64,000 nucleotides of DNA from Tepidiforma thermophila. Lineage in GTDB: Bacteria; Chloroflexota; Dehalococcoidia; Tepidiformales; Tepidiformaceae. The notes beneath the pieces were generated by a model. The model searched no databases and was not told the DNA's origin. It was given only the letters and a program-made list of their open reading frames with translations. Within the stretch, counting starts at the first letter, position 1. Every line of letters starts with the position of its first letter. A program made the position numbers and the translations under genes. The DNA is taken from positions 2,542,001 through 2,606,000 of the forward strand of contig NZ_PDJQ01000001.1 in the NCBI RefSeq assembly GCF_002563855.1. Reading direction: 5' to 3'. This document shows positions 6,971 through 30,566 of the stretch, piece by piece.

Positions 6971-10174
<3,204 letters not shown>

Positions 10175-10252
10175 GTAGGGCCTTTCCGGCGGGGGAGCAT
10201 GTGGGCGCGGGAGGGCGCCGGGATCGAGTGTACCGCCGTCGCGCCCATGTGG

Positions 10253-10282
10253 ATGGTAGCGCCGACACGAACGTTTGTTCAA
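10253..10282 (-). promoter_or_regulatory. uvrA promoter with LexA/SOS box
   Basis: On the - strand a -35 TTGAAC (10282-10277) and -10 TACCAT (10258-10253) are 18 bases apart. A palindrome GAAC-N4-GTTC (10269-10280), the core of the Gram-positive type SOS box, overlaps the -35, exactly where a repressor would block polymerase. It lies in the 263-base gap before uvrA. LexA itself is not in the window. Confidence 0.65.
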
Positions 10283-10437
10283 TGCGCGGCGGCTACCGCA
10301 GAAGGGGCGGGCGGCCGATGCTGTGGGCGTGCAGGCGCTGCAGCTCGGGCTGGGACTGCCGGCGACGGTGGCGGTGCCCTGCCTGCAGCCGTTCGGGGCG
10401 CGGGACTGGCAGGTTGCGGCGGCCGGCGGGGCAGGGG

Positions 10438-11169
10438 CTAGCGTCGCACCCGATAGCGGCAGTAGAGCTCGCCGGTGGCTTCGTTCGGGACGGCGGAGAC
10501 GAGTTCGAGCTGCTTCATGGTGCGGCGGGTGAAGGCGCGGTCGCCTTCGACCGGGGTCAGGGTGTCTCGGCCGGCGACGATGCGGGGACCGATGGTGATG
10601 AACAGCTCGTCGACGGCGTCGATAGCGAAGAGGCCGGCGTTCAGGGTGGGGCCGCCTTCGCAGAGGAGGAGGCTGGCGCCGAGTTCGCTGCGCATGTGGC
10701 TGAGCATGGCGGCGAGGTCGTTGCGTTTCGGGAGGAGGACGACCTGCCGGCCGGTGGCGCGGAGTGCGCGGACGCGGTCGGCGGGGGCGCCGCGGGCGAC
10801 GTAGACCACGGCGTCGAAGTCGGGGGCGGTGAAGAAGATGCGGTCGAGGGGGAGATTGGCGGAGGCGGTGATCGTGGCGGCGATGGGGAGCCCCTCGCGG
10901 CCGCGGGCCGCGCGGATGGTTTCGAGGATGGGGTCGCCGAGGCGGGATGAGGAGCCGCTGACGCGAAGGGTTTCGGCGCCGTTGAGGACGATATCGGCGT
11001 GGACGCGGAGCTCGCGCATGAGGCGCTGGTCGATGCGCGAGCCGAGCCCCTGCTCGGTGCCATCGACGACGGTCTTGCCATCGACCGACATGACCATGTT
11101 GATGATGACGTAGGGGCGGCCGTCCGGCGGGGCGGGGAATTCGAGCGCGGTGTAATCGGGCTTGGGCAT
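10438..11169 (-). CDS. RibD C-terminal-domain reductase
   Basis: A 243-residue NADPH-dependent reductase of the RibD-C/dihydrofolate-reductase fold, without the deaminase half. Family marks are [15 protein letters not shown] near residue 20, [27 protein letters not shown], and [15 protein letters not shown] near residue 168 (the NADPH-binding GGP). Such stand-alone proteins can act as 5-amino-6-(5-phosphoribosylamino)uracil reductases in riboflavin synthesis or have unknown substrates. A full-length bifunctional RibD is encoded separately at 59537-60652, so this may be a divergent paralogue. It is the last gene of the his-DUF2905 run, 9 bases after DUF2905. Confidence 0.85.
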
Positions 11170-29021: not shown

Positions 29022-30566
29022 ATGACCCGGATCATGACGAACGTGAGCGCCATCAACGGGCAGCGGAACCTTGCGCGGACGGGCCTGAAGATGGGGAAGA
29101 CGCTCGAGAAGCTGGCGAGCGGCTACCGGATCAACCGGGCGGCGGACGATGCCGCGGGGCTCGCCATCAGCGAGAAGATGCGGGCGCAGATCCGGGGCAA
29201 CAAGCAGGCGCTCCGGAACGCGCAGGACGGCATTTCGATGCTGCAGACGGCCGAAGGCGCGATGGACGAAGTGCACGCCATTCTCCAGCGGATGCGGGAG
29301 CTGGCAGTCCAGGCGGCGAACGGGACGTATGCGGACAACGGGCCGGAGCGGACGAGCATCGGCGAGGAGATCGTCCAGCTGCGGAAGGAGATCGACCGGA
29401 TCGCCTTCAGCACGGAGTTCAACGGCCAGAAGGTGCTGACCGGCGCGCTCTCGAGCGTGGCGGCAGGCGTGGCGGGCACCAACCTGGTCCAGGGCGAGAC
29501 CATCGGCTACGTGAATGCCGGCGCGAGCGGCACCCACCTGGTCTCGGGCGACTCGCTGCCGTCGGGCGGCACCCGCACGGTGACCTTCGCGACGGCGCCT
29601 GCTGGCGACTACGTGTTCGTGAACAACGGCGGGGTGCTGGAGATGCGGCTGGGCGGCGCGAGCGGGACGCTGGTGGCGACGGCAGCCGGCTTCGCCTCGG
29701 GCTCATCGATTGCGGGCGGCTCGGCCGGGTCGGTGGTGTTCTCGAACGGGTTCACGCTGACGATTACGACCGACCCGAACCCGTACAGCTGGACGAGCTT
29801 CCTGGCCGATATGGCGGTTGGCGGCAACCAGAACCTTTCGATTAACGGCCTGACGGCGACGACGATTACCGCGACGACGGCGCGGCCGCAGACCTACACG
29901 TTCACCTCGCCGGGTGCCGGGCAGCTGACGCTGACGGGCGCGGACGGGACCTCGCAGACGCTGACGATCACGAACATGGCGCCGAACGAGACGCGGACGC
30001 TCGACTTCAACCAGCTCGGGGTGAGCGTGACGCTGCAGACGGGGCCGGCGGGGCGGACGGCAGCGCAGGTGATCACCGACCTGACGGGGGCGACGAACAA
30101 CACCATCATCATCGAAGGGACGGGGAACACGTCGACGCTCCAGGTGGGGGCGAACGTGCCGGACACGCTGCAGCTGGAGTTCGTGAGCATGCTGAGCGAG
30201 AACCTTGGTTCGCCGGCCTACAAGCTGGGCGGGTCGTCGGGGCTGATCACGACACTGGGGGACCAGGTGGTGAAGACGATCCAGGACGCGCACAACCTGA
30301 TGAGCGCGCTGGACGGGGCGATCCAGACGCTGAACAGCCGGCGCGGCACGCTCGGCGCGGCGCAGAACCGGCTGGAGCACACGATCAACAGCCTGGGCGT
30401 TTCGGTGGAGAACCTGACGGCGAGCGAGAGCCGGATCCGCGATGCGGACATCGCCGAGCTCTCGAGCGACCTGGTGGCGCAGAACATTCTGCAGTCGGCG
30501 GGCGTGGCGGTGTTGGCACAGGCGAACCAGACGCCGCAGGCGGTGCTGAGGCTGCTCCAGAGCTAA
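29022..30566 (+). CDS. fliC: flagellin 1
   Basis: Filament subunit, 514 residues, with GGAGGAG 8 bases before the ATG. Conserved N-terminal D0/D1 (RIMTNVSAINGQRNLARTGL, then SGYRINRAADDAAGLAISEK) and C-terminal D1/D0 (LGAAQNRLEHTINSLGVSVE ... VLAQANQTPQAVLRLLQS). Residues ~145-400 form a longer, Thr/Gly-rich variable surface domain than in flagellins 2 and 3. Codons end mostly in G like other + strand genes. A terminator hairpin follows. Confidence 0.95.
   Translation: MTRIMTNVSAINGQRNLARTGLKMGKTLEKLASGYRINRAADDAAGLAISEKMRAQIRGNKQALRNAQDGISMLQTAEGAMDEVHAILQRMRELAVQAANGTYADNGPERTSIGEEIVQLRKEIDRIAFSTEFNGQKVLTGALSSVAAGVAGTNLVQGETIGYVNAGASGTHLVSGDSLPSGGTRTVTFATAPAGDYVFVNNGGVLEMRLGGASGTLVATAAGFASGSSIAGGSAGSVVFSNGFTLTITTDPNPYSWTSFLADMAVGGNQNLSINGLTATTITATTARPQTYTFTSPGAGQLTLTGADGTSQTLTITNMAPNETRTLDFNQLGVSVTLQTGPAGRTAAQVITDLTGATNNTIIIEGTGNTSTLQVGANVPDTLQLEFVSMLSENLGSPAYKLGGSSGLITTLGDQVVKTIQDAHNLMSALDGAIQTLNSRRGTLGAAQNRLEHTINSLGVSVENLTASESRIRDADIAELSSDLVAQNILQSAGVAVLAQANQTPQAVLRLLQS

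Follow-up and report, generated by a model that had tools for sequence, protein, structure and literature searches.

The palindrome in front of uvrA is, judging from sequence comparison, very probably a binding site of the SOS repressor LexA, and we consider it highly likely that the organism's own LexA uses it as an operator to repress the distal of two putative uvrA promoters (P1). This reading is based on the presence of the same box at lexA, recA and other damage-related genes, and on its conservation in the family. The finding is sound and of a well-known kind, since GAAC-N4-GTTC is already an established LexA box. A guess made from a single sequence has thereby become a comparatively supported SOS regulon for this bacterial group, with nucleotide excision repair probably wired to the SOS response in the majority of the family, though not throughout it.

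The window, i.e., the whole stretch of 64,000 nucleotides that was analyzed, contains an exact GAAC-N4-GTTC (GAACGTTTGTTC) upstream of uvrA, as the earlier note had described, and the arm GAAC of this box is common to the −35-like hexamer TTGAAC (Table 1). The segment 10253–10282 is exactly the unit formed on the minus strand by TTGAAC, a spacer of 18 bp and TACCAT. The RibD-like reductase gene ends at 10438 and the 263-bp gap between it and uvrA (10175–10437), correctly singled out before as the sizeable gap in front of uvrA, is therefore the natural uvrA promoter region. Within it, the operator lies 94 bp from the GTG start codon (10174–10172). The description of P1 as a well-spaced promoter held for the spacer and for the geometry, which is conserved in relatives, and not for the hexamers, which are weak: by our own count they match the consensus at 8 of 12 positions, the threshold of the scanner being 9, and the sigma-70 scan returned no promoter above this threshold. 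The uvrA promoter was therefore judged by comparison and conservation and not from the single sequence. In the alignment of six same-genus sequences TTGAAC was kept in five, and the GAAAGG of the Shine-Dalgarno-like sequence was unchanged in all six. A search of the ligA, recG and uvrC frames, covering the 300 nt that precede and the 200 nt that follow the first possible start, found no site even with one mismatch allowed. The probable radA frame was placed at about 22.5–23.3 kb of the window from a weak RecA match, and no purine-N-N-pyrimidine-type site with up to one mismatch was found between 12329 and 27733. The motif had been reported as missing at these four genes, and selective control of uvrA among the named repair genes of the window is supported as far as tested.

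Table 1. Features of the uvrA promoter region and the adjoining genes (window coordinates).
Feature	Position	Strand	Basis
LexA operator of uvrA (predicted), GAACAAACGTTC on the coding strand	10269..10280	-	Exact match and family conservation
−35-like hexamer TTGAAC of P1	10277..10282	-	GAAC common to the operator
−10-like hexamer TACCAT of P1	10253..10258	-	10 nt past the operator
−10-like hexamer TACACT of the putative second, operator-free promoter P2	10227..10232	-	Conservation
Shine-Dalgarno-like GGAAAGG	10181..10187	-	Read from the sequence
uvrA, 1067 aa, GTG start	6971..10174	-	NCBIfam NF001503 and TIGR00630 over cut-off
RibD-like pyrimidine reductase gene, upstream neighbor, outside the switch	10438..11169	-	Bounds the 263-bp gap

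Taken alone, the uvrA 12-mer is not beyond chance. The window contained two exact sites against 0.56 expected, and two or more were obtained in 9 of 100 shuffles. The second site, at 30200, is located inside a frame that resembles flagellin by eye, and is therefore presumably due to chance. A scan of the window allowing one mismatch was uninformative (8 matches, 5.97 expected). In the complete genome, a single contig of 2,743,337 bases, 42 exact sites were found compared to 11 for the reversed control pattern. Matches with one mismatch numbered at least 354 compared to 137, and the regulon was assembled without them.

The conservation of the uvrA box was investigated in a family set of 38 genomes from 18 genera, the own genome included. 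The uvrA upstream DNA was readable in 34 of these (29 of a first and 5 of a second set); of the other four, one was cut at a contig end, one had no N-terminus and two had no match. An exact box was present in 23 of the 34 genomes, and in all 23 loci a TA...T hexamer followed 7–10 nt past the operator, at 9 or 10 nt in 21 of them. Five of the six genomes of the same genus, each a different species, share the 12 bases while their flanks differ, and the sixth (G026, locus L131) has lost both the box and the −10 of P1. Across genera the inner bases vary and the palindrome arms stay. The exact box was also absent in G010 (L147), G017 (L268) and all eight readable genomes of genus g17 (L151–L155, L264–L266), which have a TAGAAT 15 nt before the ATG. 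The lexA gene of genus g17 keeps its box, with a mismatch in one genome, and uvrA therefore seems to be outside the SOS regulon in this genus. In a collection of named genomes, 3 of 79 readable uvrA loci (of 80) carried an exact box (control 0). Of these three loci, L046 and L047 represent the UvrA records of highest similarity and are possibly family members themselves; beyond the nearest relatives of the family, the uvrA box is rare.

These data bear on the possibility that the 12-mer is a chance palindrome and that uvrA is not regulated by LexA. The unremarkable count in the window, the location of most of the 42 exact genome sites inside reading frames (as far as the crude gene calls go) and the loss of the box in some relatives would fit such an explanation. 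It is contradicted by the footprint across relatives, that is, by identical bases between differing flanks, by a constant place at a near-fixed distance to the −10, and by arms that are maintained while the inner bases change. A chance origin was therefore rejected as highly improbable.

Of the 23 box-bearing uvrA loci, 17 had a second −10-like hexamer, TACACT or TAGACT, downstream of the operator. TACACT was invariant in the six-genome alignment of the genus and was retained in the box-less L131, which suggests that it belongs to a LexA-independent uvrA promoter, P2. A gated P1 combined with an ungated P2 would provide basal repair at all times and more of it after damage. In a variant that is compatible with the LexA-operator reading, the LexA-bound box would matter little, with most UvrA coming from the box-free P2 and induction being slight. 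The conservation of TACACT, its persistence where box and P1 −10 are gone, and the box-free arrangement with TAGAAT in genus g17 are in line with this variant. However, 23 of 34 genomes retain P1 together with its box as one unit. This implies selection, and we regard a negligible role of the box as unlikely.

The genome encodes a LexA protein of its own. A Peptidase_S24 profile search of the genome gave three matches, the best of which was LexA, a protein of 212 aa (TIGR00498, 176.1 bits, cut-off 110.95) with both a LexA_DNA_bind (PF01726) and a Peptidase_S24 (PF00717) domain over their cut-offs. The motifs TIAAGQP, GTSM and TLKR were recognized by eye, and the predicted Ala-Gly cleavage site and the Ser/Lys dyad are present, assuming that these residues can be assigned after E. 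coli LexA. The lexA promoter has GAACATCCGTTC 12 nt before the ATG. A different operator at lexA had been named in the earlier note as a finding that would speak against its proposal; since the lexA promoter itself contains this operator, the proposal stands on this point. The genome search near lexA, recA and uvrA that it had suggested returned the exact box at lexA and uvrA and a one-mismatch box at recA. The uvrA site could also be a real operator of another regulator that recognizes the same sequence, such as a LexA paralogue or a phage-type repressor, and weak LexA-domain-like matches do occur in some relatives. The LexA query, however, had a single match in the own genome, whose promoter carries the box, and the remaining two Peptidase_S24 matches were much weaker, which leaves only a very slim chance for another regulator.

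To delineate the regulon, the stretches around the 40 exact sites outside the window were taken, and 15 sites with a purine-N-N-pyrimidine center were read in detail. Genes near the sites had been called crudely, by taking the longest GC3-biased frames, and some of the calls were wrong, such as a 389-aa frame over lexA; the neighbors of the sites were then read one by one. Exact boxes were located close upstream of eight genes, namely lexA, uvrA and six further damage-related genes. The latter encode two proteins of 297 and 410 aa with an IMS (Y-family polymerase) domain, a DnaE2-type error-prone polymerase (first 662 aa within the examined stretch; best NCBIfam match PRK05672, below its cut-off), a helicase of the Lhr type with a WH_Lhr match, NrdJ (a B12-dependent ribonucleotide reductase; profile over cut-off) and an SbcD-like nuclease (47.8 bits with TIGR00619, short of the cut-off of 77.65). 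The recA gene (TIGR02012 over cut-off) is preceded, 80 nt from its start, by GAACAAATGTTT, a box with one mismatch. NrdJ is a less usual SOS member, and a title-level literature search found no paper title tying nrdJ to LexA. The inner four bases of the regulon sites were mostly purine-N-N-pyrimidine; several other sites of this type lie within coding sequence and one in CRISPR-like repeats, so that the pattern alone lacks specificity. By eye, three positions of the box could be distinguished. At uvrA and recA the first arm occupies the −35 position, with the −10 about 9–10 nt further on. In the case of nrdJ, the two Y-family genes and the DnaE2-type and SbcD-like genes, the box abuts or nearly abuts the −10. 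The lexA box, finally, is preceded by a TTGACG-N18-TAnnnT-like promoter. In all three positions, bound LexA would be expected to exclude RNA polymerase.

The boxes of the other genes were also conserved. The exact lexA box was found in 36 of 37 family genomes (30/30 in the first and 6/7 in the second set; G008 was left out of this count), and the lexA box of G035 had one mismatch by eye. All 30 family recA loci had a box with up to one mismatch, nine of them an exact one, while the reversed-pattern control gave 4/30 and 0/30, respectively. For nrdJ (L039 and L317–L345), 23 of 29 family loci were exact and 27 had up to one mismatch (control 0). The SbcD-like sample consisted of 13 clear orthologues among 30 loci, with weaker matches left out and one orthologue cut at a contig end; 11 of 12 had a box with up to one mismatch and 3 of 12 an exact one (control 0). 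Outside the family, the class was sampled through 95 genomes with a lexA gene, and lexA was read in 40 of them; in 23 of the 40 an exact box lay no more than 120 nt away (control 0).

Some sites are described here in their own right. The CRISPR-like array, with a repeat containing CCACCATCTGTTGATGGTGGAAAC, is located at about 264.9 kb of the genome (L007, around 1940–2080), and its GAAC-N4-GTTC sits in a spacer-like stretch. At 687633 (L014, 1991–2350) a perfect AGAACATCCGTTCT box precedes the gene of a 98-aa HTH protein, with a DNA polymerase III delta-subunit-type gene close by; this HTH gene is a possible SOS gene. At 569306 the LexA-like box GAACAAATGTTC stands amid several TTTCACGTG/TTCCACGTGGAA repeats (L012, around 1880–2060; about 569.2–569.4 kb) upstream of a gene for a BamB/PQQ-type protein. 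The repeats resemble the consensus of ParB parS sites. Both 687633 and 569306 were left out of the regulon count.

The lexA promoters of the family contain a further element. The everted palindrome GTTCSGAAC was present in all 30 family lexA promoters inspected (L156–L185; control 0/30). In 29 of them it was followed after 4–5 bp (16 in one) by TTGACGATAA, and in 29 of 30 its center was 48.5–52.5 bp from the center of the lexA operator. In the own genome the element lies at about 943640–943664 (L017, 1951–1976). As the LexA half-sites face outward, GTTCSGAAC is not an ordinary LexA box. A search of the 38 genomes for GTTCSGAAC-N1-8-TTGAC gave 41 matches in 35 genomes; judged by their place, 35 of the 41 were assigned to lexA and 6 to other sites. 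Among 40 lexA promoters outside the family, GTTCSGAAC was found in two and TTGACGATAA in none. The combination of the two is essentially lexA-specific. A role of GTTCSGAAC as a general SOS element was rejected: of its 18 copies in the genome only that of lexA has the TTGAC arrangement, and of the other 17, 16 overlap (crudely) called frames and one (L273) lies between frames. An assignment to the divergent PIG-L-like gene is not favored either, as the element is kept in the 7 of 30 lexA loci that show no match to this gene, although some of these absences may be contig ends. Its location just upstream of the lexA −35 would suit an activator or an auxiliary repressor. We tentatively propose, with slightly less than even confidence, that it is a second dedicated control element of lexA. 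It would serve either a second binding mode of LexA, on outward-facing half-sites, or a damage regulator that sets how much LexA is made, and would exist alongside a uvrA with two promoters, one of them SOS-gated. The XRE regulator DdiA was considered as a lead and dropped, as the passages of PMC12288472 gave no motif.

From these comparisons we infer LexA binding and cleavage, transcription from P1 and P2, and induction by damage as follows. In the undamaged cell, a LexA dimer on GAAC-N4-GTTC would mask the −35 together with the upstream portion of the spacer, barring RNA polymerase from P1. RecA on single-stranded DNA would trigger self-cleavage of LexA, the box would empty, and P1 would add UvrA on top of the basal level from the proximal, box-free P2.

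No LexA regulon of Chloroflexi/Chloroflexota was found by title or abstract start in the open-licence literature, and one may exist elsewhere. In PMC3323433, Chloroflexi come up once, among groups that have multi-chromosome genomes. According to PMC3323433 and PMC4234289, Bacillus subtilis and Gram-positive bacteria have GAAC-N4-GTTC as their LexA box. The site was accordingly rightly called Gram-positive in type before: arms and spacing are identical, and in both cases the box lies over promoter elements and occurs at lexA and recA. In contrast, the host here is of a high-G+C Chloroflexota/Dehalococcoidia type, and the inner four bases are mostly purine-N-N-pyrimidine. LexA of Clostridioides difficile binds the uvrBA promoter in vitro (PMC4234289). 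There, too, a nucleotide excision repair gene has a LexA operator in its promoter, but in the form of a uvrBA operon, whereas uvrA here stands behind an apparent promoter pair of its own. Mutasome-type SOS regulons include ImuB and DnaE2. The regulon described here likewise has LexA boxes at Y-family polymerases and at a DnaE2-type polymerase, but its genes are at separate places and include nrdJ.
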